From a virus, in IMG/VR virus record IMGVR_UViG_3300030061_000688, positions 8,731-31,907 of that record: a stretch of DNA of 23,177 nt. One strand, given 5' to 3'. This document shows positions 3,907-23,177 of the stretch, one piece after another. The notes under the pieces are model-generated. The model ran no database searches, was not told where the DNA came from, and saw only the letters and a list, made by a program, of their open reading frames with translations. Made by a program: the position numbers and the translations under genes. Every line of letters starts with the position of its first letter. Positions within the stretch are counted from its first letter, which is position 1.

Positions 3907-5631
3907 ATGCAGACAACAGAGATCAATGGATTTTTGATTGATGAGTTCAATCAATATAAGCTAGAAGAAGGGAAAAAGCAGGGTATATGTCCTCTTTGCT
4001 CTCACACTAGAAAACCCAAAAACCAAAAAGCAAAATGTGCTTCTTATGATTGGGAACGGGGTCTCGGTACTTGTCACAACTGTAATACATCATTTCAATT
4101 ACATACTTATCAACGTAAAGGAGCTAGCGAAAAAGAATATGTTAGACCTGTTGATAAAGTTGAAGACTATAATATAACTGGTGATCCAGAACAAAAAGTC
4201 TTGAAATGGTTTAAAACAAGAGGTATATCAGCTCAGACTCTTATCGACTTGCACGTCGGTGAGGGTCCTGAGTATATGCCGCAAACCGGTAAGACCGAGA
4301 ATACTATAAAGTTTAATTACTTTATGGGCGATCAACTTATTAATATTAAATATAGAGATGGTCGTAAAAACTTTAAGTTATATAAAGGTGCTGAAAAAGT
4401 ATTTTATAATATTAATAGTATTGTAGGTTATGAGTATTGTATTATAACTGAAGGTGAAATGGATGTGTTAGCACTACATGAAGCTGGTATACCGAATAGT
4501 ATATCAGTTCCTAACGGTGCTACACTAAATAGTAATAACTTAGATTATCTTGACAATTGCATAGATTATTTTGAAGACAAAGAAAAAATAATACTAGCTG
4601 TTGATTCAGATGAAGCAGGACAAGCATTACAAGCAGAATTAGTTAGAAGACTTGGTGCTGAAGTTTGTTATTTAGCTTCGTTTGATGACTGTAAAGATGC
4701 TAATGAATATCTTGTAAAATATGGCAAAGAAAAATTATCGGAGCGTATTACCAAAGCGAGACCAGTCCCGCTCGAAAACGTCACAACATTCAAAGACATC
4801 GAAGATGAAGTTACTGACTTTGTACGTAATGGATTTAAAAAAGGTTATCAAGTTGGGTTGGAAAACTTTGACAACATTTTTAGCACGTATACCGGTCAGT
4901 TTATTACTGTTACTGGGATACCTAGTAGCGGTAAGTCTGATTTTGTTGACCAAATGGTTGTAGGTTACAATCGTAACTATGGCTGGAAAACAGCTTTTGC
5001 ATCACCAGAAAATGCACCTACGTATCTACATGCTCATAAGCTAATGCGTAAAACATGGGAAGGTATGCCAACGTCATCTGATATACACGGTGATAAATGG
5101 AATCAAGTTGCTAGTCACGTTAATGATAACTATTTCTTTATTGATATGGAACGTTATACTTTAGAATCAGTACTACGTAAAGGTGCTGAGCTAGTTAAAC
5201 GTAAAGGTATTAAATGTTTAGTTATTGATCCTTTTAATAAGGTTAGAGATGTAGACTGTAAAACAGAAGACGTTAACCGTTATACAATGGAATATCTTAC
5301 TAAAATAGAAACGTTTGCTAAAAAGTTTGATGTGCTAGTATTTATTGTAGCACACCCAACTAAAATGTATAAAGACAAAGACGGTAAGATTGAAGAACCA
5401 ACTATGTATAACATTAAAGGCGGTGGTGAATGGTATGATGCAAGTTATCATGGTATATTAGTTCATAGAGATTATGAAGCTAAAACAGTTAAAGCTAAAG
5501 TTTTAAAAGTTAAGTTTCAAAACCTTGGTGAAAACGGTGCTGAAGCTCATTTTAAATGGGAGCATAAGTCAGGTTGTTTTATACCGTTTGAACCCATAAG
5601 TATTAACGATGAACCAATGCCGTGGGAATAA
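3907..5631 (+). CDS. DNA primase-helicase (T7 gp4 / Twinkle type)
   Basis: This 574-residue protein has all three parts of a primase-helicase. A zinc-binding domain shows CPLC (Cys28, Cys31) and CHNC (Cys56, Cys59). A TOPRIM primase domain has ITEGEMDVLALHEAG with Glu182, followed by LAVDSDEAGQAL with Asp233 and Asp235. The RecA-like DnaB-type helicase has Walker A GIPSSGKSD (Lys343), Walker B KCLVIDPFNK (Asp441), and the downstream motifs FIVAHPTK (His483) and GGGEWYDASYHGILVHRD. It would unwind the fork and lay down lagging-strand primers. It starts 9 bases after the SSB-like gene and ends directly against the next ATG. No DNA polymerase gene is visible in the window, so it must lie outside it or come from the host. 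Confidence 0.95.
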   Translation: MQTTEINGFLIDEFNQYKLEEGKKQGICPLCSHTRKPKNQKAKCASYDWERGLGTCHNCNTSFQLHTYQRKGASEKEYVRPVDKVEDYNITGDPEQKVLKWFKTRGISAQTLIDLHVGEGPEYMPQTGKTENTIKFNYFMGDQLINIKYRDGRKNFKLYKGAEKVFYNINSIVGYEYCIITEGEMDVLALHEAGIPNSISVPNGATLNSNNLDYLDNCIDYFEDKEKIILAVDSDEAGQALQAELVRRLGAEVCYLASFDDCKDANEYLVKYGKEKLSERITKARPVPLENVTTFKDIEDEVTDFVRNGFKKGYQVGLENFDNIFSTYTGQFITVTGIPSSGKSDFVDQMVVGYNRNYGWKTAFASPENAPTYLHAHKLMRKTWEGMPTSSDIHGDKWNQVASHVNDNYFFIDMERYTLESVLRKGAELVKRKGIKCLVIDPFNKVRDVDCKTEDVNRYTMEYLTKIETFAKKFDVLVFIVAHPTKMYKDKDGKIEEPTMYNIKGGGEWYDASYHGILVHRDYEAKTVKAKVLKVKFQNLGENGAEAHFKWEHKSGCFIPFEPISINDEPMPWE

Positions 5632-5877
5632 ATGCCGAGAATAAAGAAACAATCAATGGGAAGCTATTTGCCTACGTCGGAAGAACTAACGGCATATCGG
5701 TGGTGTATAAACAATGGAATACATATATCCCCGTTTGCAACTGGAGAAGCGACATGGTACTTAGATATAGAGATTAACAAAAAAACTAATAGATCACCTG
5801 TTACATATGGTAAAGATACTATATGGATCAAGATGTATGAGTTTTATAAATATTATTACGATAAATATGCTAAATAG
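5632..5877 (+). CDS. Hypothetical protein, 81 aa
   Basis: The frame begins immediately after the primase-helicase stop and overlaps the start of the next gene by 11 bases. The product is rich in aromatic residues: YRWCINNGIHISPFATGEATWYLD in the middle and IWIKMYEFYKYYYDKYAK at the C-terminus. It has no signal peptide and no membrane segment. I do not recognise the family. Its tight placement between primase-helicase and a nucleotide-metabolism gene suggests an auxiliary replication role, which is only inference. Confidence 0.65.
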   Translation: MPRIKKQSMGSYLPTSEELTAYRWCINNGIHISPFATGEATWYLDIEINKKTNRSPVTYGKDTIWIKMYEFYKYYYDKYAK

Positions 5878-6508
5878 TTATAACAATGCGAATGAAGCTT
5901 ACGAAGCATTATTAGACGCCGTCATAATAAACGGTATTGAGTTTGATAATACTAAAGCTTTGTTTAACTGTGGGTTTTATATGCGTGACCCTTTGGATAA
6001 TCATATAACCAATAAACAACGTAATTGGAAACTAGAGTATGCTGAAGCTGAATGGCAATGGTATTTATCAGGTGATCCTAATATAATAAAGTTAGGGCAA
6101 CTATACGGTAAAATACCACCAATATGGGAACGTATGGCAGACAGTAAAGGTAATGTAAATAGTAATTATGGTTATCAATGGAAACGAAACGATCAAATAG
6201 ATTATGTCGTTGCTAAACTAAAAAATAATCCTAATACTAGACACGCTGCAATAAGTATATACGATGCTAAAGAGTGGCAAAAATATACTAAAGATACACC
6301 ATGTACATATGCAGTTCAATTTACAATTGTAAACAATACATTAAATATGTCTGTTTATATGCGTTCTAATGACATCTGGTACGGTTTCTGCAATGATCAG
6401 TATCAGTTTTCATCATTACAAAAAATGATTGCAGACAGATTAAATATTGAAGTTGGTTGGTATTACCATCATGCTCACAATATGCACTTATACAATGATA
6501 AACTTTAA
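5867..6508 (+). CDS. Thymidylate synthase-fold protein, dCMP (hydroxy)methylase-like
   Basis: I start at the ATG at 5867; an earlier in-frame ATG at 5807 would overlap the upstream gene far more. The resulting 213 residues align with thymidylate synthase almost residue for residue, apart from small indels. PPIWERMADSKGN corresponds to the WDEWAD region and NPNTRHAAISIYD to the phosphate-binding arginine region. TPCTYAVQF holds the catalytic Cys146, MRSNDIWYGF gives Arg166, Ser167 and Asp169, and NMHLYND gives His207 and Tyr209. At position 177, where TS has Asn, this protein has Asp (GFCND). That is the residue found in dCMP hydroxymethylase (T4 gp42) and in engineered TS variants that accept dCMP. 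The C-terminal segment (about 50 residues) that closes over folate in TS is missing. A MazG fusion follows, consistent with nucleotide remodelling. Confidence 0.8.
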   Translation: MLNSYNNANEAYEALLDAVIINGIEFDNTKALFNCGFYMRDPLDNHITNKQRNWKLEYAEAEWQWYLSGDPNIIKLGQLYGKIPPIWERMADSKGNVNSNYGYQWKRNDQIDYVVAKLKNNPNTRHAAISIYDAKEWQKYTKDTPCTYAVQFTIVNNTLNMSVYMRSNDIWYGFCNDQYQFSSLQKMIADRLNIEVGWYYHHAHNMHLYNDKL

Positions 6509-6513
6509 AATTT

Positions 6514-7278
6514 ATGTATTATTTATACCACATACCAGGTAAAAAGATCGGTGTCACACGTGATCTTAATACCAGAGTTACCCTTATGCAAGGTTATAAG
6601 GAGAATGAGTATGAGGTTCTTGAGCAGTCAGACGATATAGATTATATATCAGACCGCGAAATAGAACTTCAAAAGTCTTATGGCTATAAAGTTGACCTAA
6701 AGAAATATAAAAACTTATTTAATAAAATGAAAATAAATGCAACAGAACAAACCTCAACATTTCCCTGTCCTGTAGATAAACTAAAAGGCAGATTAATGGA
6801 TAACAAAGGTTTAACTTGGCAAACGGAATTTGGCCAGTTTGAAATTACCAAACAAAATATTCCGTGGATAATGGCTAATGTTAAAACATCTATGTTTAAC
6901 GAAAACAGAAGCTATATTTATAATAAAGCTTTTTACGAAGCTTACTTTAATCCAAATCACAATCCTGATGTACAAACCCATGAAGATCGTTTTGATCTGA
7001 TTAGAGACTGGGCTGCAACAAGAGGCTTATACGACAAAGGTAATGCACATACACAATATGTGAAGCTTATGGAAGAAGCTGGAGAGTTAGCTAAAGCATT
7101 GTTAAAGCAAGACAAACCTGAAATTATAGATGCTATTGGTGACATGGTTGTAGTATTAACAAACTTAGCACACCTACAAGGATTTGAAATAGAAGACTGT
7201 ATTGACTCAGCATATAATGTTATTGCTGCTCGTACAGGTAAAATGATTAACGGAACATTTGTAAAAGATGAAGATTAA
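6514..7278 (+). CDS. GIY-YIG-like domain fused to MazG NTP pyrophosphohydrolase
   Basis: This 254-residue protein has two recognisable parts. Residues 1-60 read YYLYHIPGKKIGVTRDLNTR and then EIELQKSYGYK. This resembles a shortened GIY-YIG nuclease fold, with possible catalytic Arg21 and Glu49 or Glu51. The middle (about 75-155) matches nothing I know. The C-terminal part (about 155-254) is a MazG-type all-alpha pyrophosphatase: LMEEAGELAKALL contains the EExxE motif (Glu187, Glu188, Glu191), followed by EIIDAIGDMVVVL (Glu203, Asp206, Asp210) and ARTGKMINGTFVK. MazG hydrolyses (d)NTPs to the monophosphate, which would feed the adjacent TS-fold enzyme. It overlaps the next gene by 11 bases. The MazG call is firm; the nuclease call is moderate and activity is unproven. 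Confidence 0.82.
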   Translation: MYYLYHIPGKKIGVTRDLNTRVTLMQGYKENEYEVLEQSDDIDYISDREIELQKSYGYKVDLKKYKNLFNKMKINATEQTSTFPCPVDKLKGRLMDNKGLTWQTEFGQFEITKQNIPWIMANVKTSMFNENRSYIYNKAFYEAYFNPNHNPDVQTHEDRFDLIRDWAATRGLYDKGNAHTQYVKLMEEAGELAKALLKQDKPEIIDAIGDMVVVLTNLAHLQGFEIEDCIDSAYNVIAARTGKMINGTFVKDED

Positions 7279-7582
7279 AACACAAGATAAAATAGTACAA
7301 GCTGTATTAGCTAAAATGGATCAACGTAGTTTAGTTGGCCAAAAAAAATATGGAGCAACAATGATGCAAGAAATTGAAGGCCAAACTAAAGACTTAAATA
7401 GATTTTTAGTTGATGTTCAAGAAGAATTAATGGATGCGTTGTTATATATTGAAGCAGCTAAACGTTGTCTAAGCGATGAGATCGAAGAGGCAATGTTAAA
7501 TAGAATAAATGTAATAGGTCAAAATGGCAATGACGGATTACATTATCATGATATAGAAATCAATGAAGAAGAAATCTTATAA
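7268..7582 (+). CDS. MazG-like all-alpha NTP pyrophosphatase, putative
   Basis: The product has 104 residues and looks all-helical. KMDQRSLVGQKKYGATM is followed by LVDVQEELMDALLYIEAA, whose Glu52, Glu53 and Asp56 resemble the metal-binding E-E-x-x-D stretch of MazG/dUTPase-like phage proteins. A complete four-helix set is not obvious by eye, so the assignment is from these motifs only. It overlaps the MazG fusion upstream by 11 bases and the nuclease downstream by 20 bases. Two pyrophosphatase-like genes in a row would be a strong commitment to controlling nucleotide pools. Alternatively it is a structural relative without activity. Confidence 0.55.
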   Translation: MKIKTQDKIVQAVLAKMDQRSLVGQKKYGATMMQEIEGQTKDLNRFLVDVQEELMDALLYIEAAKRCLSDEIEEAMLNRINVIGQNGNDGLHYHDIEINEEEIL

Positions 7583-8018
7583 ACGAAAAAGAGGTCCTGT
7601 ACAATCAAAGAAAATAACATATGATGGTATTAACTTTGCATCAGGACTTGAGCGTTATATGTATATGGCTTTAAAAAAGGCAAAGATTAAAGCTCTTTAT
7701 GAAGGACAAACGTTTGAACTAGTAGAGGGTTTTGATTTTCCTTTTGAAGCATATGAACGATGCGGAAACGGAAAAGGTGATTACAAAAATAGAGGTAATA
7801 AAAAAATCTTTAATATAAAGTATACACCTGATTTCATAGGTAAAGGTTTTATTATTGAAACAAAAGGTAGAGCTAACGAATCTTTTCCAATGCGTTGGAA
7901 ATTATTTAAAAAGCTTATAGCTGAAAACAGAGTAGGACCATTTACATTATATAAACCTCAAAATCAAAAAGAATGCGACGAAACAGTAAGACTGATCCTC
8001 GACAAGCTAAAGCAGTAG
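7563..8018 (+). CDS. Endonuclease I-like PD-(D/E)XK nuclease (Holliday-junction type)
   Basis: The 151-residue protein shows INFASGLERYMYMALKKAKI (Glu30), YTPDFIGKGFIIETKGRA (Asp90, Glu99, Lys101) and an RWKLFKKLI helix. This is the arrangement E...PD...E-x-K of T7 endonuclease I and of DUF1064 phage nucleases. They cleave branched DNA, resolve Holliday junctions and debranch replication intermediates. It differs from the T7 enzyme in an extended basic N-terminus and in an insertion with CGNGKGDYKNRGNKK before the catalytic Asp. It overlaps the gene before it by 20 bases and the small gene after it by 46 bases. Confidence 0.85.
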   Translation: MKKKSYKRKRGPVQSKKITYDGINFASGLERYMYMALKKAKIKALYEGQTFELVEGFDFPFEAYERCGNGKGDYKNRGNKKIFNIKYTPDFIGKGFIIETKGRANESFPMRWKLFKKLIAENRVGPFTLYKPQNQKECDETVRLILDKLKQ

Positions 8019-8273: not shown

Positions 8274-8416
8274 AAGAACAAAACAAAGGCTGGAGTTTAT
8301 CATTAGGTTTTTATCCGGGTATATTATTCGGAGTAAGATCTTATAATGAAACTAATCAAACAACACATGTATTATATGTGCCATTTATTGATATAGCATT
8401 AGAAATATATAACTAA
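8270..8416 (+). CDS. Small protein, 48 aa, upstream of nrdB
   Basis: I choose the ATG at 8270, which shares an ATGA with the upstream stop, rather than an earlier ATG at 8210 that would read through another small gene. The product has 48 residues: MKEQNKGWSLSLGFYPGILF, then GVRSYNETNQ and VLYVPFIDIALEIYN. The aromatic, hydrophobic pattern GFYPGILFGVR looks conserved and could be membrane-peripheral. Its TAA overlaps the nrdB ATG by one base, so it may be needed for nrdB translation. Confidence 0.68.
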   Translation: MKEQNKGWSLSLGFYPGILFGVRSYNETNQTTHVLYVPFIDIALEIYN

Positions 8417-9384
8417 TGGGATTATTTGATGAGCGCATAGCGTACAAACCGTTTGAATACCCTGAGTATTACACTGAGGGTTGGCTAAAACAAGCTCAGG
8501 CATTTTGGTTGCATACTGAAATACCTATGAGCGGAGATGTAAAAGACTGGAACGAAAAATTAAATGACAAAGAAAAAAACCTTGTTGGAAACATACTACT
8601 CGGCTTCGCACAGACCGAATGCGCTGTCTCCGACTACTGGACGCAAAAAGTTGTATCTTGGTTTCCAAAGCATGAGATACAGCAAATGGCGATGATGTTT
8701 GGATCGCAAGAAACAATACATGCAGTCGCATATAGCTATTTAAATGAAACATTAAAATTAGAAGATTATGAAGCTTTCTTACATGAAGAAGCAACGGCTA
8801 ATCGCTTTGACAATCTTGTTGCTTACAACGGCAACGAATCTGTGGGTATTGCGAAAAGCTTGGCTGTATTTTCAGCCTTCGCTGAAGGAGTTAGTCTGTA
8901 TAGTGCTTTTGCAGTGCTGTATAGTTTTCAGCTACGAAATTTACTCAAAGGTATTGGGCAACAAATGAAATGGTCCGTAAGAGACGAATCATTACATAGT
9001 AAAATGGGATGCAGATTATTTAGACATATGTGTGAAGAAGACAATAAACTATTGTCTGCTTGTAAACAAGATGTTATAAAAGCTGCTGAAATAATGGTAG
9101 ATCTCGAAGAGAAATATATTGACAAGATGTTTGAAATGGGTGATATAGAAGGTATTAAATCTTACGACTTAAAACAATTTATAAGAAAAAGAACAAATGA
9201 AAAACTTATGGAACTCGGTTATACAGAACTTAAAGATAAGTTCGAATATGACACTAAAGCAGCGGCTAAGCTTGATTGGTTTTATCATCTTACCGGGGGC
9301 GTTACCCATACTGATTTTTTCTCTATTCGTCCAACAGACTATAGCAAAGCTAATGAAGGCGAAGACTTCGAGGACATTTGGTAA
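8416..9384 (+). CDS. nrdB: Ribonucleoside-diphosphate reductase class I, small subunit (R2)
   Basis: The 322 residues form an R2 protein that carries the diiron centre and tyrosyl radical. Metal ligands can be read as Glu68 in FAQTECAVSDYW (Asp in E. coli), Glu99 and His102 in GSQETIHAVAY, Glu157 in SAFAEGVSLY, and Glu191 and His194 in VRDESLHSKMG. The radical Tyr is Tyr106, seven residues after Glu99 as in E. coli (Glu115/Tyr122). R2 pairs with the large subunit to reduce ribonucleotides to deoxyribonucleotides for phage DNA synthesis. The start overlaps the preceding gene by one base, and the end overlaps a 39-aa ORF. The partner nrdA lies 0.5 kb downstream, separated by three small genes. 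Confidence 0.95.
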   Translation: MGLFDERIAYKPFEYPEYYTEGWLKQAQAFWLHTEIPMSGDVKDWNEKLNDKEKNLVGNILLGFAQTECAVSDYWTQKVVSWFPKHEIQQMAMMFGSQETIHAVAYSYLNETLKLEDYEAFLHEEATANRFDNLVAYNGNESVGIAKSLAVFSAFAEGVSLYSAFAVLYSFQLRNLLKGIGQQMKWSVRDESLHSKMGCRLFRHMCEEDNKLLSACKQDVIKAAEIMVDLEEKYIDKMFEMGDIEGIKSYDLKQFIRKRTNEKLMELGYTELKDKFEYDTKAAAKLDWFYHLTGGVTHTDFFSIRPTDYSKANEGEDFEDIW

Positions 9385-9907: not shown

Positions 9908-11626
9908 ATGTGGAATAATGAATGGAAAAAAGGCGAAGACTATCCTCGCTGGGGTGACACAGATGTTTATAAAAAAACTATATCTGGAGGGTATTTACTA
10001 CAAGATGAAACACCTCGTGAAGCATACATGCGTGTTGCTAAAACAGTTGCGCGTAGACTTTACAAACCTGAAATGGCCGGAACGTTTTTTGATTATATTT
10101 GGAATGGTTGGTTGTGTCTGGCTAGTCCTGTGCTATCAAACACAGGGACTGATCGCGGTTTACCTATATCTTGCTTTGGCATTGATGTTGCAGACTCGAT
10201 ACAGGATATAGGACAAAAAAATTTAGAGATGATGCTACTCGCTAAGCATGGCGGTGGAGTTGGTATCGGTATAAATCAAATTAGACCCGCCGGCGCAAAA
10301 ATTACAGGTAATGGAACAAGTGATGGCGTTGTGCCATTTTGTAAAATCTATGACAGCACTATACTTGCCACTAATCAAGGATCTGTCAGACGAGGAGCTG
10401 CATCAGTTAATATCAATATTGAACACGACGATTTCGAAGAGTGGCTTGAAATACGCGAACCAAAAGGAGATGTCAACAGACAATCCCTCAACTTGCACCA
10501 ATGTGCTGTTGTCGGCGATAAATTCATGCGAAGACTTGAAGCTGGAGATAAGCAAGCCAGAAAACGTTGGGGCAAATTGTTACAAAAACGTAAAGCTACT
10601 GGAGAACCTTATATCTTATTTAAAGGGAATACAAATAAAAAGAACCCGCGTGCGTATAAAGATAATGGTTTAAAAGTACATATGACAAATATATGCTCAG
10701 AGATTACATTACATACAGATGAAAACCACAGCTTTGTTTGTTGTTTATCATCATTAAATCTAGCAAAATATGAAGAATGGAAAGGTACTAACCTTATTTA
10801 TGACAGTATATGGTTTTTGGACGGAGTTATGGAGGAGTTTATACAAAGAGCTAAGGGCTTACGAGGTTTTGAAAACGCAGTCAGATCAGCAACGAAAGGT
10901 CGAGCACTTGGACTCGGCGTCTTGGGCTGGCACACGTATTTACAGGAAAAAGGTATATCGTTCGAAGGTTTACTTGCTCAGTTTGAAACTAGGAAAATTT
11001 TTAGTCAGATTAAAATTGAAAGCGAAAGAGCTTCCATGGCTCTTGCTGAAACTTATGGTGAACCTTTGTGGTGTGCTAATACTGGTATGCGTAATACTCA
11101 CTTGCGTGCTGTTGCTCCCACTGTTTCTAATAGTAAGCTTTCGGGCAATGTATCTCCGGGTATTGAACCTTGGGCTGCTAATGTATTCACAGAGCAATCA
11201 GCCAAGGGAACGTTTATAAGAAAAAACCCTACATTAGTAAAGTTATTAAGAAAACTTAAAATAAACAACAATGAAACATGGGATAAAATACTTGCTGACG
11301 GTGGTAGTGTTCAAAATCTTTCTGAGCTTGATAATGTTGTCATGGCGCATGACACACCAGCAAAAGAGGTATTTAAGACTTTTAAAGAGATTAATCAATT
11401 AGAGTTGGTTAATCAAGCAGGTCTGAGGCAACAATATGTTGATCAGTCTGTAAGTTTAAACTTAGCTTTTCCAAGTGTTGCTACACCAAAATGGATTAAT
11501 AAAGTACATTTTGAAGCATGGAAAAAAGGAGTTAAAACTTTATATTATACGCGTACAGAATCTGTATTGCGTGGAGATATTGCGCAGCAAGCAATGAATG
11601 AAGATTGTCTTGCGTGTGATGGTTAG
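9908..11626 (+). CDS. nrdA: Ribonucleoside-diphosphate reductase class I, large subunit (R1), short form
   Basis: The 572 residues contain the catalytic core of R1 without an N-terminal ATP cone, so dATP overall-activity control is expected to be absent. Active-site residues match E. coli: Cys89 in LPISCFG (Cys225), Asn261, Cys263 and Glu265 in TNICSEI (Asn437/Cys439/Glu441), Cys278 in FVCCLSSLNL (Cys462), and the radical-transfer pair Tyr546-Tyr547 in LYYTRTES. The C-terminal redox pair is Cys567 and Cys570 in CLACDG. The enzyme is shorter than the 761-residue E. coli protein because of the missing cone and reduced loops. A strong terminator follows 18 bases after the stop, so it closes the plus-strand operon. 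Confidence 0.95.
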   Translation: MWNNEWKKGEDYPRWGDTDVYKKTISGGYLLQDETPREAYMRVAKTVARRLYKPEMAGTFFDYIWNGWLCLASPVLSNTGTDRGLPISCFGIDVADSIQDIGQKNLEMMLLAKHGGGVGIGINQIRPAGAKITGNGTSDGVVPFCKIYDSTILATNQGSVRRGAASVNINIEHDDFEEWLEIREPKGDVNRQSLNLHQCAVVGDKFMRRLEAGDKQARKRWGKLLQKRKATGEPYILFKGNTNKKNPRAYKDNGLKVHMTNICSEITLHTDENHSFVCCLSSLNLAKYEEWKGTNLIYDSIWFLDGVMEEFIQRAKGLRGFENAVRSATKGRALGLGVLGWHTYLQEKGISFEGLLAQFETRKIFSQIKIESERASMALAETYGEPLWCANTGMRNTHLRAVAPTVSNSKLSGNVSPGIEPWAANVFTEQSAKGTFIRKNPTLVKLLRKLKINNNETWDKILADGGSVQNLSELDNVVMAHDTPAKEVFKTFKEINQLELVNQAGLRQQYVDQSVSLNLAFPSVATPKWINKVHFEAWKKGVKTLYYTRTESVLRGDIAQQAMNEDCLACDG

Positions 11627-14890: not shown

Positions 14891-15081
14891 TACTTTTTCT
14901 TTTTCTTTTTACCTCCACCAAATTTACTTGGTCCACCAGCCTTAGTACATCTTACACCCCAACCAGAAGCATAAGCACTAGGCCAAACCTTAAATTTTCT
15001 TTTTGCAGCAGCTTTACAAGCTGAACTTATTTTACCATATAAAGGGCTACTTTCCATCTTTTTCTTTGTTTTGTAGTTCAA
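14890..15081 (-). CDS. Short Lys-rich DUF5872-like protein
   Basis: The 63-residue frame reads SSPLYGKISSACKAAAKRKF, then KVWPSAYASGWGVRCTKAGG, and ends in a poly-Lys tail. The KVWPSAYASG...C motif is one I associate with DUF5872-like proteins of marine viruses (recalled, not searched). The start may be the first Met (15081, overlapping the giant gene by 35 bases) or Met9 at 15057 (overlap 11 bases). The latter seems likelier, because residues 1-8 lie inside the giant gene's coding sequence. It stands between the giant protein and the similar Lys/Cys-rich 116-aa protein, and the two may act together. Confidence 0.7.
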   Translation of the reverse strand: MNYKTKKKMESSPLYGKISSACKAAAKRKFKVWPSAYASGWGVRCTKAGGPSKFGGGKKKKKK

Positions 15082-18000
15082 TAATTTTCTTAACTCTATC
15101 TTGCTCGTATTTTAAATCTTTAATTTGTTTTTTAGTTAAACCAAGATTTAATAATGTTTCTACCTGTTGAGGTTTAGTGGTTTCTTTCATCATGTTTTCT
15201 AACTTGATTTCAGCTTCCATTTCTGGAGTTATAACAACTTTGTCTTCAACGCCGTAATATGGTAAACCAACATCCCAAGTAGACCAACCTAGTAATAAAG
15301 CTACTTTTTGCCATTTCTCAGAACTATCACTATATATAGCTCTCATGGCATTTAATTTTATAACAGCTTCATCAACAGGTAAATTTGTTAAAGCTGATAT
15401 AGTTTGTGCTACAGCTAAATAAGCCGGATTGTTTAAATTAATTCCTTGCGCTTTCATTTCTTTCATATTCCATGAAAAAGTATTTGCAGCGCTTTTTAAT
15501 TTTCTTAATTTAGATTGTAAAGGTGGAGATATAGAAAATAAAGCATCTACAGCTTCAGCATATTCAGGTGTTTTCTTGCCAGCTTGTTCTGCTATTTCCA
15601 TTAATGTATTTTTCAATGTAACAGACAAGGCTCCATAAATACCTAAACCTCTAAGTTGAGAGTCAATCATACCATTTAAAGTTCTTTGTATTCTTTTTTC
15701 TCTTTTTTCTTGATCTTTCTCTTCATCACCATCAAATAATAAAAACTGTATACCTTGTTGCAACGCGTTAAACATTAAGTTTTGTATACCACCGTAATAA
15801 ACTATTTTAGATACATTTTCTTTCCAATCACCTCTACGATTAATTAAATCTTGTATAGCTCTTTTTTGTATTCTAGCATACTGCATTTGCGTATTACCAA
15901 AAGAAAGTATTAAACGACCTGCTGCTGATCTTTGTTGTTGACTAACTTTCATTGGGTTACTTGACTGCTGACTAGTTTCAGAAGTGTCTCTAAAATCTTC
16001 AAAAGCTTGTTTAGCTGCAACATCTGGAGTCATACCATCTTTTATATAGGAATTATATCTATTTCTATAAAAAGTAGCACCACCTGTTGCAATAGCAAAA
16101 CTATCTGCAAATCTTGTAAATACAAAACCTTTTTCTAAAGCTAATGCTATAAATTTCTGTGCTTTATTACCTTTACCTTTTGCTAAATCAGCTATTTCAG
16201 ATTCACTAATATTTATTTTTAAACCATCTCGTCTAGCTTTTAGATAAGGTGAGTTTAATAAAAACATAACATCTTTCCAATACTGTGGTTGATTACCAAA
16301 AGCTTTAGCTGCTTGAAGAGGGTTATTGTCTTTCCAATTTATAAAGTTTACATTTGAAATCATCTGCAGTAAAGCGGATCTTGTATTAAGAAACATTACT
16401 ACACCTACAGAGTTATTTATCCAATCATACCATTTAGAAGTAATTGAGTCAGTACTACTACTTCTGTTGCTACCTCTATACATAGCATCAATGCTAGCTT
16501 TTAAAGCTTCAACATACTTAGCGCCAAACGCTGCCTCTAATTTACCCATAACTTTATCGGTAAATATAAGATCTACGTTTTCTTTCCACTGAGTTAAATA
16601 TTGTTTTCTATCAACTTTATTTATACCACTTATAATATCTGTTGTTATAGTTCCAGCTGTCCAGCTTTCATTTGGAGCTGGATAATCTTTTCCTTTTCTT
16701 AATGATATTAATTGATCGGCAAAAATCTTTAAGTTAGGATCTTTTTTAACAAAGTCACTTAATCTTTTTAAATCTCTTTTAGATAATCCTGGTATTGACA
16801 TACCTTGTTCACCCCATATATAAGCTCTAATTGCATGCTCAAAAGTAAATTTACCTATACCTGTTTCTTGTTTTAAACTTTTCGGAAGAGTAGGAAACTT
16901 AGATTTTAAAGCATTAAAGTCTCTAGAAGCAGCAACCTTAGAAGCTTCAAGTTCTATTTCTGCTCTGTTATATGGATCAATTAAATTATCTTTAAAAAAC
17001 GCCATTTGAGCATCGCCAATACTACCTTTACCGAGTAATTTATATAATAAACCTGTAAAGTCTTCAGCGGAAGGTGGTATGAAAAATTGAAACTTACCTT
17101 TGCTAGCGCCTATTGTTTTTGCTTTTGCTGGTGAATAATTTTTATATGATTGTATGCCAGTTTTCTTTTCAATTATATCATTCATTATAATTTCAAAGTT
17201 CTTCTGTTTACTTCTTAATGCTATTTGTGCTCTTCCTTTTACATCAAGAACATCATAAACAGCTTGTACAGCTTGAACATTTAGCAAAGCATCATCAGCA
17301 AAATAAAAATCATTATAACCTTCAGCGGCTTTACCTACAATCCAATTTGCTTTTGCTTGTGCAGCACCATCTGCAAGTCCAACAATATTTTCAAATTTAA
17401 GAGTTATACCTTCTGATTTTAACCACTCATGTATAGCTGTTGCTGCTTCTGGAGTTCTAGCTGTTAATATATAAACATTACTATTACCAAATTTATCTAC
17501 AGCTTTTTTAAGCTTGTTAAATAATGGTCCTCTTCTTCCTTGTACAACTTTATTAAATTCGCTAAAATCAAACTTAGCTCCCATTGATTCCAATGTGCTA
17601 TGTTCTAAAGCAAACTCTGTAGCGTTTATTTTTCTTATAGTTCCATCCGGCATCTCTACAATAACACTACTATTTGTTATTGCAACTGTATCATCAAAAT
17701 CAAGAACAGATATACCTTTTACAGGAGATTTAGGATCTCTTGCAATTTGTATTGCTTTTTGATAATCTTCTAATATTTTTATTTTACCAGAAACTGTTTT
17801 ACTACGCATTACTTTTTTACCAAAAGTATTATCTATATTTTCAACAGCTTTTATTTTTAAAGGTAAAACTTTTGTAGAATATACTTTAAACTCTGCTTTT
17901 GCTTGTGCTAAAGTTATTTCACCTGACAACACTTTTGTTATAAGTTCGTTTGCTTTTTCGCCAGCAATAGCAACTCCTGTTTCAGATTTTATATTTAATT

Positions 18001-21000
18001 TACCTACAAAAAACTCTCCTATAGTCATTTTAGGATTTACAAGTTTATATAAAAAAGGATTAGCAGTATTGTTAAAACTATATCTTATCCATGAAGCTAA
18101 GCCTGCTGGCAAAAAGTCTAATTTACCTTGTTCTATTAAAGGTATAACAGTTTCATAAAAAATAGGAGGCATAGCTTCGTTTAAACCTAAAGGTTTCAAA
18201 GCTAAATCATCATTATATCTTAAACCACCTTGTGCGTAAGATTTTTCTATAATTTTAAATTCACTTTCAACATTTCCTTTTATAGCAGCATCAAATAGTT
18301 GCTTACCCATTTGTATAGCTGGCATCATGTGTTCTTCAGTTATTCTTACAACATCTATTTTACCATTAGCTTTTACAGGATAAAAAATAGTTGGAGCTAA
18401 ATACCTTAAAGGACTATTCATATCCACAGATAAATCTGCTATTATTCTAGCTAAATCTGGAGCAGCATCCTTGTTTTTAGCCATAAACTCTTGCATGGCT
18501 AGGAAAAGCTTTTTAAGCTCTGCTAAATCTTTAGATATTAAAGAAGGATCATCTATTAATCTTTGTATAGCTTTTTTATTTACTACTTGAACACCGTTTT
18601 TTCTTGTACCATATTTTAGTCTAATAACTTTAGGATCGCCAGTTTTTATACCTATATACTTGTCAAATTTTACTTTATCTGTAAAAGTTTTACCATAACC
18701 TCCTGTCATAGCTCTTCTAACATAGTCACCAAGTTCTGGATAAGCTTCTATAAAAGATTTTATTGTACTTACAAATTTTTGACCTTCAGCAGTGTCTAAG
18801 TCATATGCTTTTTTAGCAACGCCTTTTGAATTTAATACATCAGTAGCTACTCTAATTAATAGTGGTAATTCTACAGGAAATTTACCTTTACCCCAATTTC
18901 TTTTAGTAACTTTACTTCTTTTAACTTGTGCTTTTTGTATAGCTCCTTCTGCTGGTGTTTTAGTTCCTTCTGCAACTTGTTGGTCAATAGCTATTTCTAT
19001 AGAATTTAAAGTTAACAGTCTAGATAAAAGCTCCATTATGTTTTTTGAAGCTTGAGCTGTTCCTGATCTAGCGTCTTTTATATTACCTTTTGCATCCATT
19101 CCAAATACAGATAAAAAGTAAGGTAATTTTAATTTATTAGGATCTAATCTATATTGTATTTGATTATTTACTTTTAAAGGTTTACCATCTTCGCCTTTTA
19201 ATTGTATATAAAAAGCATCTAATAATTTTTGACCAAGTTTTCTACCTTCACCACCTACTTTAATAGTTTTACCGTTTTTATTTTTTATAGTAAGTATATC
19301 AGCATTACCTTTTATTTGCTTTAGCATCGATAGCAAAGCAGGTGCGTTGTTTTTTATAAACATTTGTATAGGTGTTACTTCACCTTTACGTAAATTATCT
19401 TTAGGATTTAATATACGCGATACTGGTATTCCTAGTTCATCAGCAATTTGTTGCGCAGCAGCTTCAGCAAAAGGTTTTAAATCTTTTAAAGTTATATCAC
19501 TGTCTAAATTTATTTCACCAGTTTTAATTTTTTCAAGAATAGAAGAAACAATAACTTTTTTGTTTGGTTTTTTAAGAATTTTAAAAGCATCAATATCTAT
19601 TTCTTTTACTGGAGTTGTTTCTGTTTCTACATCTGTTTCAACAATACCAGTATTTCCATCTGTTATTTCAGAAGTATCAAAAACAACATCACCAAGATCT
19701 TTTGCTCTTTCAAATATTATATCGGCTCTATTACCTATTCTACCTAAATATGTTGTAACTGCAAAATCAGGATTATAACCTTCACCTTCTTCAAATAATG
19801 GTGTTGTTTTTCCAGACCAAGCTGCTATATCACCACCTAATATAAGTTCAACAATAGCTTGTTTTATTCCATTTTCATCTATTCCTTTTGTGCCTCTTCT
19901 TTCGTATTTTAATTTACCTTTTATAAAGCCAAAATTTGCTTCAACAATTGCTTCAGCCGCAGCATATTGCTCATCACGCTGTTTTTGATTTACAGGTTTT
20001 GTTCTAACTATAGCAACTAAATCTTTATTAGTATATATTCCTTCTTTGTAACCTTCTAAAAGTTGAATACCTCTAGGCGTTATTTTAGATCTTTTTTTAC
20101 TAGGAACTGTTATAACAACTTCTTCGTTTGTAAATCCTTCTCCCTGCCAAACATCACTATCAATTATTTTGTTTAATGCGTCAACTGATAACTCTTTATT
20201 ATTCCATGCATCAGCAAGAGTTTGAAAAAATTGCAGAGCTCCATCTTTTCCTGAAAAATCCATATTGAATTTAGATTCAGTATTATTAGCCTTAATAGAA
20301 TTATTAACACCAAATGCTAATTGATTCCAGAAATTAAAATTATTAGCTTTTTCAATGTTTATTCTTTTACCTGACAATTCTTCTAAAAACGCTATTATAA
20401 CTTCATCAGCTTTAGTTGTGTCAGCTTTTTGTGTTATTCTTAAGTATGCGTTAAAATTGTTATCTGCTAAATAATCTAATATAGAAGCTGCAACTGGTTC
20501 AAAAGCTTTAGAATCAGTTCCTAAGGCTTCAGAAAATATAACATGGTTAAGTTCATGAAAAGTTGTTTCACTAGCTTGATTAGCAACAGAATTTTGTTGA
20601 CTTACAATAACATCGTAAACTAATTTTTTTTCGCCTTTAGCATTTGTTTGAGTAGTTACAAATGTAGTACCGTTCATTGTACCATCTTCTATACCTTCTA
20701 TAAACTCTTCTAATTCTTTTTTAGCTTCTTCTTCAGTTAAACTGTTTTTAGAATCTTTAACTCTAGCATCTAACATTTTTCTGTATCTAGCTATAGTCTG
20801 CTTGTTTGTTCTACCTAAAGAAAAACTTATGTTTAAACCTTTTGTTTTTAAAGATTTTAATAATTCTATACCATTCGTAAAATTTCTTTCAAATTTATCC
20901 TGTATGTGAACTTGCTCAGATTCATCGTATATTTGCTTTTCACTAGGATTATTTATTCCTTTTACTTCAAGGTTTTTAATAGCTCTTTTTTTAATTTCTG

Positions 21001-23177
21001 CCCGTTCAGATTTAGAAAGTAAACCAAATGTTTTAGTAAAAGCTTCAGTAAATACATTTCTAGCATTAACCAAAGCTTCAAATTCAACTCTTATAGGTTC
21101 AAGCAACGCCTCCTTTGTTTTAAAATCGTAAGCAGGATTATCATTTATTTCGCTAGCTTTTTGTTGTAATTCAGCAACTCTAGTCATAGCGTCTGCGTAA
21201 ATTCTAAACCCATCCGCGTCCATTTCTTTTATTCTTTTATTTAAGTCTAATAAAATATTTTCATTACTCTGAACTAGCTCTAATTGAATATTTTTCATTT
21301 GCTGAATCTGTTCAGCAGTTAAGCTACTTTTTAAAACTTTTTTCTTAAATCTATTATCGTAAAGAGATCTTTCAATATTGTTATATTCAGCTACATTTGC
21401 TTTAAATTGAGCGTTTATTTTAGGCGAAGACAAAGCATTGTATATTCCACCCGCAACAATAGGAGTAACATACATTGTATTAGAAAAAAGTAAAGTATTA
21501 AAAGAAGCTTCGGTAAAACCAGTAAACATAGGTTTCCCGTCTAACAAGTTTTGTGCAGTAAGAGTTAGTCCTATTTCTCCTAAGTAATCCAATCCTATTA
21601 GTCTACTATATTCTGGTAAACCATTTAATCTTCTTCTACTCCAAGCTTTTAATCCTTTTTCTAATACTTCATTACCAACTGCTCCTTTTGAAAATCTAGC
21701 CTTTACTCCTTTTAATATCTTAAACTCTGGTATAGTACCAGCTACTTCAGCCAAACTATAACCTGTCATTGTAAGATTCATATCTTGAAAATCATAAGGT
21801 CTACCACCGTTTAACATTTCATTATATCTTTCTCCTGCATACATACCACCAGTAGTGCTTGAAGCAACAGCTATACCAGCATAAGGATTTCCTGTTAAAT
21901 AAGTAGTACCTATCATAGAACCATAAAAAGGAACTAACTCAAGACCGTAATCAAAAATATATTCAGTAAAGTTTGAAAAACTACTAAAAGCATTACCAAA
22001 TTCAGGAGACTTTACGTATCGCTCTTTGTGTTTTTTTCTATAATCTATAAAATCACTTTGAATTTCAAGAAGTTTCGCTTGTTTTTCTTTTAAACCTACA
22101 GAGTTATTTGGTGTTCCAGTTGCTAAATCTATTAAAGCTAATAATTGTTGAAGTCCACCTAAAGCGTAACTTATAGAATTTATTGCTAAGTCTCCAGGTT
22201 CTCCTAGTCCACCAAAATATTTTTTCATTTGGCTATAGTTTCTTTTTAGCCATTCAATTTCATATGTATCGTCTTCGTATTCTTGCGCTTTTTTAATGTA
22301 ATTGCTATAATCTAGTTGAACATCTTGTACAGCGTATTTTAAATCTTTTTTAAAACCATTGACACCCTCTATTCTTTTGTTCATTGTTTTTAAAAGAGAA
22401 TTATACTGTTGAGACAAAGCCGTTACATCAAAACCATTAGCCTGACCCTCTTTAATTTGCTTGGCAAGATCAAGTAAGTTTTGTTGATCTATGTTTATAG
22501 CTGTAGTATATTTTTTTATATTGTTAACTAAAGAGCTATTTTTTATAGAATCAAATCTAGCTTCAAAATCAAATCTTTCTTCTAATTCTTTTTTTATTAT
22601 TTGTCTAGCTAAACCTTCTATTTCTTCTTTTGTTATAGCTTTATTACTACCTTGTTCTTTTCTTTCATTTTCTAAAATTAATCTAGCTTTATCTAATTGA
22701 TCTTCAAAAGGTTGAAAAACCGTACCAGGCATGTTAAGTGGAGTACGCATATTCATTTTAATATCCATACCTTCACCAGCAGCAAATCCAGCGTCAATAC
22801 TTTCTTCAGGTTCAAAACTTATGTTATTTACAAAGTTATCTATTTTAATTTCTTCTTCAGGACTTATATTAGTTATATTTGTAAATTCATCATATTTTTG
22901 CTCTATAGATCCTTCATAGTCGCTTGGTAAAACAAAAACCTCAGAACCTCTTTTTCTATGAATATCTAAGTACTCTTTTACACTATTTATTTTTTCAAAA
23001 CCCTTGTCGTTGTTTCTTATTCTATTATCTATTTCTTGATGAGTGTATATACTGCCATTTATTTTGTATTTACTTTTGTTTTCAACAATTAAAGGTATTT
23101 CAACTTTTATATTTTCAGAACCCATTACTAGGTCTTCATCATCATCTTCTTCTTCAGGTTGTTGCAACTCAGGTATT
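15047..23177 (-). CDS. Giant polyvalent/virion-type protein, over 2700 aa (N-terminus missing)
   Basis: The frame stays open through the right edge of the window, so the true start is outside. Residue numbers here count from the TTG at 23167. It fills about 35% of the window. An acidic N-terminus (EEEDDDED) precedes a mostly helical, Gly-spotted region with PFYGSMIGTTYLTGN near 410. A zinc-peptidase motif follows (HELNH, 871-875). A sigma-region-2-like stretch lies around 1068-1160 and a HAD phosphatase domain around 1815-1985. A long C-terminal region has FLNTRSALLQMISNVNF (from about 2258) and RFADSFAIATGGATFYRN. The combination fits the large polyvalent proteins injected with phage DNA (LPP type) or a giant internal virion protein. 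It is the first gene of the minus-strand set visible. The function is inferred. Confidence 0.8.
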   Translation of the reverse strand, partial: IPELQQPEEEDDDEDLVMGSENIKVEIPLIVENKSKYKINGSIYTHQEIDNRIRNNDKGFEKINSVKEYLDIHRKRGSEVFVLPSDYEGSIEQKYDEFTNITNISPEEEIKIDNFVNNISFEPEESIDAGFAAGEGMDIKMNMRTPLNMPGTVFQPFEDQLDKARLILENERKEQGSNKAITKEEIEGLARQIIKKELEERFDFEARFDSIKNSSLVNNIKKYTTAINIDQQNLLDLAKQIKEGQANGFDVTALSQQYNSLLKTMNKRIEGVNGFKKDLKYAVQDVQLDYSNYIKKAQEYEDDTYEIEWLKRNYSQMKKYFGGLGEPGDLAINSISYALGGLQQLLALIDLATGTPNNSVGLKEKQAKLLEIQSDFIDYRKKHKERYVKSPEFGNAFSSFSNFTEYIFDYGLELVPFYGSMIGTTYLTGNPYAGIAVASSTTGGMYAGERYNEMLNGGRPYDFQDMNLTMTGYSLAEVAGTIPEFKILKGVKARFSKGAVGNEVLEKGLKAWSRRRLNGLPEYSRLIGLDYLGEIGLTLTAQNLLDGKPMFTGFTEASFNTLLFSNTMYVTPIVAGGIYNALSSPKINAQFKANVAEYNNIERSLYDNRFKKKVLKSSLTAEQIQQMKNIQLELVQSNENILLDLNKRIKEMDADGFRIYADAMTRVAELQQKASEINDNPAYDFKTKEALLEPIRVEFEALVNARNVFTEAFTKTFGLLSKSERAEIKKRAIKNLEVKGINNPSEKQIYDESEQVHIQDKFERNFTNGIELLKSLKTKGLNISFSLGRTNKQTIARYRKMLDARVKDSKNSLTEEEAKKELEEFIEGIEDGTMNGTTFVTTQTNAKGEKKLVYDVIVSQQNSVANQASETTFHELNHVIFSEALGTDSKAFEPVAASILDYLADNNFNAYLRITQKADTTKADEVIIAFLEELSGKRINIEKANNFNFWNQLAFGVNNSIKANNTESKFNMDFSGKDGALQFFQTLADAWNNKELSVDALNKIIDSDVWQGEGFTNEEVVITVPSKKRSKITPRGIQLLEGYKEGIYTNKDLVAIVRTKPVNQKQRDEQYAAAEAIVEANFGFIKGKLKYERRGTKGIDENGIKQAIVELILGGDIAAWSGKTTPLFEEGEGYNPDFAVTTYLGRIGNRADIIFERAKDLGDVVFDTSEITDGNTGIVETDVETETTPVKEIDIDAFKILKKPNKKVIVSSILEKIKTGEINLDSDITLKDLKPFAEAAAQQIADELGIPVSRILNPKDNLRKGEVTPIQMFIKNNAPALLSMLKQIKGNADILTIKNKNGKTIKVGGEGRKLGQKLLDAFYIQLKGEDGKPLKVNNQIQYRLDPNKLKLPYFLSVFGMDAKGNIKDARSGTAQASKNIMELLSRLLTLNSIEIAIDQQVAEGTKTPAEGAIQKAQVKRSKVTKRNWGKGKFPVELPLLIRVATDVLNSKGVAKKAYDLDTAEGQKFVSTIKSFIEAYPELGDYVRRAMTGGYGKTFTDKVKFDKYIGIKTGDPKVIRLKYGTRKNGVQVVNKKAIQRLIDDPSLISKDLAELKKLFLAMQEFMAKNKDAAPDLARIIADLSVDMNSPLRYLAPTIFYPVKANGKIDVVRITEEHMMPAIQMGKQLFDAAIKGNVESEFKIIEKSYAQGGLRYNDDLALKPLGLNEAMPPIFYETVIPLIEQGKLDFLPAGLASWIRYSFNNTANPFLYKLVNPKMTIGEFFVGKLNIKSETGVAIAGEKANELITKVLSGEITLAQAKAEFKVYSTKVLPLKIKAVENIDNTFGKKVMRSKTVSGKIKILEDYQKAIQIARDPKSPVKGISVLDFDDTVAITNSSVIVEMPDGTIRKINATEFALEHSTLESMGAKFDFSEFNKVVQGRRGPLFNKLKKAVDKFGNSNVYILTARTPEAATAIHEWLKSEGITLKFENIVGLADGAAQAKANWIVGKAAEGYNDFYFADDALLNVQAVQAVYDVLDVKGRAQIALRSKQKNFEIIMNDIIEKKTGIQSYKNYSPAKAKTIGASKGKFQFFIPPSAEDFTGLLYKLLGKGSIGDAQMAFFKDNLIDPYNRAEIELEASKVAASRDFNALKSKFPTLPKSLKQETGIGKFTFEHAIRAYIWGEQGMSIPGLSKRDLKRLSDFVKKDPNLKIFADQLISLRKGKDYPAPNESWTAGTITTDIISGINKVDRKQYLTQWKENVDLIFTDKVMGKLEAAFGAKYVEALKASIDAMYRGSNRSSSTDSITSKWYDWINNSVGVVMFLNTRSALLQMISNVNFINWKDNNPLQAAKAFGNQPQYWKDVMFLLNSPYLKARRDGLKINISESEIADLAKGKGNKAQKFIALALEKGFVFTRFADSFAIATGGATFYRNRYNSYIKDGMTPDVAAKQAFEDFRDTSETSQQSSNPMKVSQQQRSAAGRLILSFGNTQMQYARIQKRAIQDLINRRGDWKENVSKIVYYGGIQNLMFNALQQGIQFLLFDGDEEKDQEKREKRIQRTLNGMIDSQLRGLGIYGALSVTLKNTLMEIAEQAGKKTPEYAEAVDALFSISPPLQSKLRKLKSAANTFSWNMKEMKAQGINLNNPAYLAVAQTISALTNLPVDEAVIKLNAMRAIYSDSSEKWQKVALLLGWSTWDVGLPYYGVEDKVVITPEMEAEIKLENMMKETTKPQQVETLLNLGLTKKQIKDLKYEQDRVKKIIELQNKEKDGK
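15878..16450 (-). other. C-terminal LPD38-like region of the giant protein
   Basis: Residues about 2240-2430 contain WYDWINNSVGVVMFLN, TRSALLQMISNVNFINW, TRFADSFAIATGGATFYRN, AKQAFEDFRDTSETSQQSSN and AAGRLILSFGNTQMQYARI, then GGIQNLMFNALQQG. The alternation of Trp/Asn-rich and hydrophobic helices resembles a large polyvalent protein-associated domain (LPD38-type), recalled from memory. The hydrophobic helices could insert into a membrane. I treat the family name as tentative. Confidence 0.45.
17213..17725 (-). other. HAD-superfamily phosphatase domain within the giant protein
   Basis: Residues about 1815-1985 show the HAD motifs in order. Motif I is LDFDDTVA (Asp1823 nucleophile, Asp1825 acid/base; DFDDT). 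Motif II is YILTARTPEAA (Thr1902). The acidic motif IV is YFADDALLN (Asp1958, Asp1959). KSEGITLKFENIVGLADG and AKANWIVGKAAEG lie between motifs II and IV. This resembles polynucleotide- or small-molecule-phosphatases carried by marine phages. No clear Lys motif III was picked by eye, though AKANWIVGK offers candidates. The substrate is unknown. Confidence 0.8.
19700..19975 (-). other. Possible sigma-70 region 2-like segment in the giant protein
   Basis: Residues about 1068-1160 read AEAIVEANFGFIKGKL, then RRGTKGIDENGIKQAIVELI and FAVTTYLGRIGNRADIIFER. These parallel the sigma region 2 order: (E)xLIExNLxLV, a gap, (D)LIQEGxxGL, a gap, FSTYLxxxIR. The resemblance was found by eye and may be chance. 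The rest of the sigma factor is absent. Confidence 0.3.
20348..20605 (-). other. Zincin-like metallopeptidase domain within the giant protein
   Basis: Residues about 855-940 of the giant protein hold SETTFHELNHVIFSEALG, with the HExxH zinc motif HELNH at residues 871-875. A helix with DEVIIAFLEELSGK (residues 921-934) follows about 46 residues later. Its Glu922 or Glu929 would be the third ligand of a gluzincin. Such peptidases are a recurring module of large polyvalent phage proteins, where they may cut the protein itself or host targets after DNA entry. Ligands are visible; activity is inferred. Confidence 0.72.

Follow-up and report, generated by a model that had tools for sequence, protein, structure and literature searches.

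Gene content of the locus

The stretch of phage DNA analysed here (23,177 nucleotides, referred to below as the window) encodes on its plus strand a primase-helicase with TOPRIM and DnaB-like parts (3907-5631), a small ORF of 81 amino acids (orf81, 5632-5877) and, overlapping the latter by 11 bases, a thymidylate-synthase-fold protein of 213 amino acids with Asp at position 177 and no C-terminal tail (5867-6508), a predicted dCMP 5-hydroxymethylase. Downstream on the same strand are genes for a MazG/PRA-PH pyrophosphohydrolase (6514-7278), a small conserved partner protein (7268-7582), a DUF1064/resolvase-like nuclease (7563-8018) and the small (NrdB, 8416-9384) and large (NrdA, 9908-11626) subunits of ribonucleotide reductase. 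The order from orf81 through the enzyme to NrdA is kept in most loci with enough sequence. The position of the enzyme gene, bordered upstream by the primase-helicase gene, is called the slot below.

The original prediction spoke of adjacent MazG enzymes. This holds for the 6514-7278 protein, which matches PF01503 (3.6e-07), PF03819 and a MazG-like PHROG. The 7268-7582 protein has no match among families, structures or PDB sequences, and its AF2 model is a helical hairpin only (pLDDT 74.6), so that its MazG label is a motif-level guess. The N-terminal segment of the MazG protein (6514-6720; YLYHIPGKKIGVTRDLNTR) is reminiscent of a GIY-YIG nuclease motif in degenerate form; in its homologue from the related contig G044, this part gives only sub-threshold Pfam matches, to MUG113/T5orf172.

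Elsewhere in the window, a minus-strand ORF of 2706 amino acids (15047-23167) has no Pfam match; by eye, a HAD-like part and an HELNH motif of metallopeptidase type can be made out, in the manner of phage polyvalent proteins. Genes for GroEL and for a GroES-like protein are also part of phage genomes of this lineage (L107:10139-11704, L098:15974-17545).

The thymidylate-synthase-fold enzyme and its predicted reaction

The enzyme gene runs from an ATG at 5867 to a TAA at 6508. An alternative in-frame start at 5807 would give a longer ORF; conservation among relatives starts at about 5867. The protein belongs to the thymidylate synthase fold, as it matches PF00303 (5.5e-31, 108 bits at a cut-off of 24), and its AF2 model, built on the family alignment (pLDDT 94.4, pTM 0.91), superimposes on T4 dCMP hydroxymethylase (1b49) with a Z score of 23.4. 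The Z scores of the model with the CMP 5-hydroxymethylase MilA and with AfhB are both 25.3, and thymidylate synthases reach at most 21.8. Among solved structures, the top sequence matches are MilA (7.9e-19) and T4 dCMP hydroxymethylase (4.4e-18), above all thymidylate synthases, and a family profile again ranks MilA first.

The protein was aligned with E. coli ThyA, T4 gp42 and others. As originally proposed, Cys146, Arg166, Ser167, Asp169, His207 and Tyr209 fall at the same numbers as in ThyA, and position 177 is Asp rather than Asn. Ten residues (D143, C146, T147, R166, S167, D169, N176, D177, H207 and Y209) are invariant in 48/48 homologues, as is Ser99-Asn-Tyr101, a conservation far above chance level. 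Asn-Asp at 176-177 was found in all 80 relatives from viral contigs, and nearly every complete one of them ends with the sequence HLYNDKL or only a few residues away from it. The window protein itself stops four residues beyond Tyr209, and so do nearly all homologues; the absence of the thymidylate synthase C-terminal segment, noticed at the outset, is therefore a conserved feature of the family and not the result of a frameshift.

Both NCBIfam and PHROG would name this protein a thymidylate synthase, although in NCBIfam it falls far short of the curated cut-offs. A thymidylate synthase, ordinary or degenerate, that acts on dUMP is hardly credible, the least probable of the readings considered: the thymidylate synthases in our residue table have Leu three residues before the catalytic Cys (position -3), His147, Asn177 and tails of 55-63 residues, whereas the present family has invariant Asp177 and Thr147 and lacks the tail throughout. 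Furthermore, the exchange of Asn177 for Asp in the E. coli or L. casei enzyme shifts the preference to dCMP (PMC8670742). Asp177, Thr147 and the fact that the best-scoring solved structures are cytidylate hydroxymethylases support specificity for dCMP, in line with what had been expected from Asp177. Note that the hydroxymethylase-type enzyme of Vi01, which has Asn177, combines Asp at -3 with Asn147. A protein of Agathobaculum phage AB434P2 (L115:3838-4500), annotated as dUMP hydroxymethyltransferase, carries Asp177 and Thr147, and dCMP is therefore its likelier substrate.

According to the ternary complex of the T4 enzyme, hydroxymethylases are marked by a water-activating acid three positions ahead of the catalytic Cys, a Ser/Thr-x-Tyr motif, Asp179 and the lack of a thymidylate synthase tail (PMC6400193). 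The window protein has the corresponding Asp143, Ser99-Asn-Tyr101, Asp177 and an end four residues after Tyr209, as well as the folate-activating Glu62. The original prediction left hydroxymethylation and methylation of dCMP side by side; the former is preferred for this protein on account of Asp143 (the water-activating Asp145 in T4), the Ser99-x-Tyr101 pair and the lack of a tail. The missing tail had also been counted against a T4-like system, which does not hold since T4 dCMP hydroxymethylase lacks it as well.

We therefore regard the 5867-6508 product, with a probability of roughly 80%, as a predicted dCMP 5-hydroxymethylase that acts in the manner of T4 gp42 and whose product would enter phage DNA in place of cytosine; fold, residues, their conservation and the operon are what the analysis shows, and the activity, the product and its incorporation are what we infer. 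In such a reaction, Cys146 would attack C6 of dCMP, with Asp177 holding and protonating the cytosine and Arg125 and Arg166 holding the phosphate. Glu62 would open methylene-tetrahydrofolate, the methylene moving to C5. As no C-terminal tail seals the site for hydride transfer, water activated by Asp143 and placed with Ser99 and Tyr101 would attack the methylene to give 5-hydroxymethyl-dCMP (hmdCMP) and tetrahydrofolate. The adjacent MazG/PRA-PH enzyme, proposed to turn dCTP into dCMP, would probably remove the former and supply the latter. Phosphorylated hmdCMP would then be built into phage DNA instead of cytosine, with protection against restriction as the outcome. The MazG/PRA-PH gene fits modified cytosine, because PF01503 and PF00303 occur together on contigs that an experiment had enriched for this base, where position 177 is mostly Asp (PMC8670742). 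The DNA-ligase domains PF01068/PF14743, also associated with such contigs (PMC8670742), are present in the related genome G008.

T4 gp42 (1b5d, 6a9a) resembles the window protein in the fold, Asp at 177/179, Asp three before Cys, Ser-x-Tyr, Glu, His-x-Tyr and the absence of a C-terminal tail. However, the two share only 28% identity, T4 gp42 ends 28 residues after the Tyr209 equivalent (four in the window protein), the equivalent of E. coli thymidylate synthase Arg127 is His in the window protein, unlike in gp42, and neither a gp1-type kinase nor a BGT/AGT gene was seen in the window lineage. MilA (5jnh, 5b6d) has the best sequence and structure scores and shares Asp at -3, Thr147 and Asp177, but possesses a large C-terminal domain that the window protein lacks. 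Its preference for CMP is owed to Ala176/Lys133 (PMC5175136); the window protein has Ser167 and Arg125, the marks of deoxynucleotide use, in place of this Ala and Lys, and is thus not of the CMP-specific type (PMC5175136), with dCMP as the expected substrate. The closest protein from an isolated phage is the annotated deoxycytidylate 5-hydroxymethyltransferase of Bacteroides phage BF486P2 (43.8% identity, same key residues). It differs in that 17 residues follow Tyr209; its phage also has a second, divergent copy with Asp177 and, in the vicinity, a gene resembling P-loop kinases. In that second copy (L083:12120-12881), Leu replaces the equivalent of the catalytic Glu58.

AfhB, the dCMP hydroxylase of phage HY126 (its sequence was identified by a 99% match to 9iqc), is a thymidylate-synthase-fold enzyme reported to make 5-hydroxy-dCMP (PMC13390438). 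A flavin-dependent synthase of this kind, using FAD and O2 for the synthesis of 5-hydroxycytosine that is later glycosylated, would be a quite improbable identity for the window protein. AfhB (9iqc, 9iqu) is structurally as near as MilA, is likewise tail-less and has Asp177 and Cys146, but its sequence match is far weaker (1.9e-8 versus ~1e-18 for MilA and the T4 enzyme). Moreover, its folate-handling set is gone (Glu58 to Phe, Trp at 87 to Val, Asp169 to Asn, Tyr209 to Phe), whereas Glu62, Trp87, Asp169 and Tyr209 are all retained in the window protein and invariant in the 48 homologues. The combination of Phe for Glu58, Asn169 and Phe209 as the mark of an AfhB-type active site, derived from two sequences, is absent here, where Glu62, Asp169 and Tyr209 stand. 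Judged from these residues, folate chemistry appears to have been lost in AfhB and retained in the window protein.

Two enzyme types in one slot

Contig G044 matches the window in the primase-helicase (85%), NrdB (86%) and NrdA (91%), but its slot holds a thymidylate-synthase-like (TS-like) protein of 274 amino acids instead (L357:10317-11141). In a set of 80 loci picked by their primase and not by the slot gene, the place between primase-helicase and MazG is occupied by the short enzyme in 55 loci and by a full-length TS-like protein in 25; anything else was found in 0/80. On the primase tree of this set, slot type changes seven times, at least four of these changes being forced by the starred branches; in a mixed locus set, at least six of seven changes are forced. 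Primase and NrdA show no difference between the two slot states. The type of the small partner gene (7268-7582 in the window) differs between the states, in 77/77 cases of the primase set and with seven exceptions among all loci. As the partner gene lies two genes from the enzyme, linkage could explain this as well as functional coupling.

All 105 loci with a TS-like protein in the slot have Asp177, Leu143, His147 (Tyr in four) and a tail of 45-70 residues. These proteins score above the cut-off of the NCBIfam thymidylate synthase model TIGR03284, and their residues suggest that they are likely dCMP methylases hidden under the thymidylate synthase name. Indeed, Asp177 together with a complete tail is the make-up of engineered thymidylate synthase mutants that methylate dCMP (PMC8670742). 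It is also found in the TS-like enzyme of Bosavirus AXL1, a relative of Xp12 used here as its stand-in; Xp12 is a 5-methylcytosine (5mC) phage, and its DNA is refractory to most restriction enzymes (PMC9206674). A methylase function of the TS-like state is on these grounds a supported prediction. The AXL1 enzyme shares Asp177 and an adjacent pyrophosphohydrolase gene with the window protein, but has a full C-terminal tail and no Asp at -3 and is therefore of the methylase and not of the hydroxymethylase type.

Could the window protein itself form 5-methyl-dCMP through hydride transfer, in the way of Xp12-like phages? It has Asp177, and natural full-length Asp177 enzymes do occur in the same slot and in AXL1. 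Nevertheless, this is as improbable as the flavin-dependent reaction, since the tail that closes the site for hydride transfer is missing and the residue three before Cys is Asp rather than a hydrophobic one; the lineage's presumed methylases have retained this tail as well as Leu143 and His147 or Tyr147. The combination of Asp177, a thymidylate synthase tail and no acid at -3 thus characterizes the TS-like alternatives of the lineage and not the window protein.

We would give even odds to a broader scenario: one fixed locus of marine phages repeatedly swaps a tail-less dCMP hydroxymethylase, for 5-hydroxymethylcytosine (hmC), for an Asp177 TS-like dCMP methylase, for 5mC, each with its own partner type, and close relatives would thus be differently modified to escape different host defences.

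Proposed fate of the product in phage DNA

In T4, the annotated phage kinase acting on hmdCMP is gp1. A tblastn search with gp1 and with kinases from the neighbourhood of other phages' cytosine hydroxymethylases (E up to 0.01) gave no match in the window lineage. P-loop genes are found near the hydroxymethylases of ATCCB, nattely, AB434P2 and BF486P2; among the early genes of six contigs, the only recognised P-loop protein with a Walker A motif is the primase-helicase, and no Walker A motif is kinase-like. Two related genomes, G008 and G009, have repeated contig ends and are probably complete. No DNA polymerase or kinase family is among the 25 Pfam families listed for G008 or the best 25 of 59 PHROGs for G009 (ORFs of up to 1000 amino acids), and no glycosyltransferase or carbamoyltransferase is named in either list. 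In the window, Pfam and PHROG likewise name no glycosyltransferase or other DNA-modifying gene, in agreement with the original reading of the sequence. These gaps, together with the His at the Arg127 position, weigh against the T4-like reading. Either the host provides the enzymes for phosphorylation and polymerisation, or cytosine is not fully replaced by the product.

Some loci (L024:6910-9524, and also L048-L051, L053-L055, L058-L060, L064 and L074) carry after NrdA a block of four genes for a JmjC/cupin protein, a small cupin and two proteins that by eye resemble sugar transferases. The latter two match no named GT family; it is possible that this block tailors a modified base.

The second outcome, in which hmdCMP is made but not incorporated genome-wide (e.g., because the host is unable to phosphorylate it) and the enzyme mainly drains dCMP or dCTP, is unlikely but deserves more weight than the other alternatives. 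It would agree with the finding of no phage kinase, polymerase or sugar transferase in the window's phage. The occurrence of restriction-type palindromes speaks against it: C-containing 4-bp palindromes are present at 0.91-0.97 of expectation in the 12 contigs with the enzyme, none being strongly avoided, versus 0.55-0.79 in 12 of 13 related phages without PF00303 (0.97 in the remaining one, G030). This comparison is confounded by host and habitat and is for this reason given little weight. AT-only palindromes differ slightly between the groups, too, and T4 itself avoids GATC. Seven further close contigs show no avoidance; these contigs do not cover the slot, except that G045 reaches its downstream side. 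Phages with the TS-like state are near 0.90 of expectation (little avoidance). The lack of avoidance is suggestive of, though not decisive for, protected DNA in both slot states. Strong site avoidance was seen in G020, G023, G024, G019 and MW202828, where GATC is almost or completely missing, and in several of them CATG or CTAG as well.

The host is likely a member of Bacteroidota. Relatives of the terminase belong to phages infecting Flavobacterium and Cellulophaga, and the matched MAG bins were assigned to Flavobacteriaceae, Saprospiraceae and Sphingobacteriaceae; matches to one bin each of Aliivibrio, Halieaceae and Verrucomicrobiales probably reflect mis-binning.

An uncultured marine phage thus probably makes 5-hydroxymethylcytosine for its own DNA. 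A dCMP hydroxymethylase of the T4 type is already known; new are the very compact enzyme, the uncultured lineage and the locus that exchanges it with a second Asp177 enzyme. The comparison sharpens the residue rules that separate thymidylate synthase, dCMP methylase, dCMP hydroxymethylase and flavin-dependent 5-hydroxy-dCMP synthase. It also poses the question by which route hmdCMP enters DNA when the phage has no recognisable kinase or polymerase. Predicted wholesale cytosine modification is extended to a large lineage of uncultured marine phages whose enzyme annotation pipelines would label as thymidylate synthase. The paired slot provides a natural experiment, in which near-identical phages would be expected to differ in carrying hmC or 5mC.
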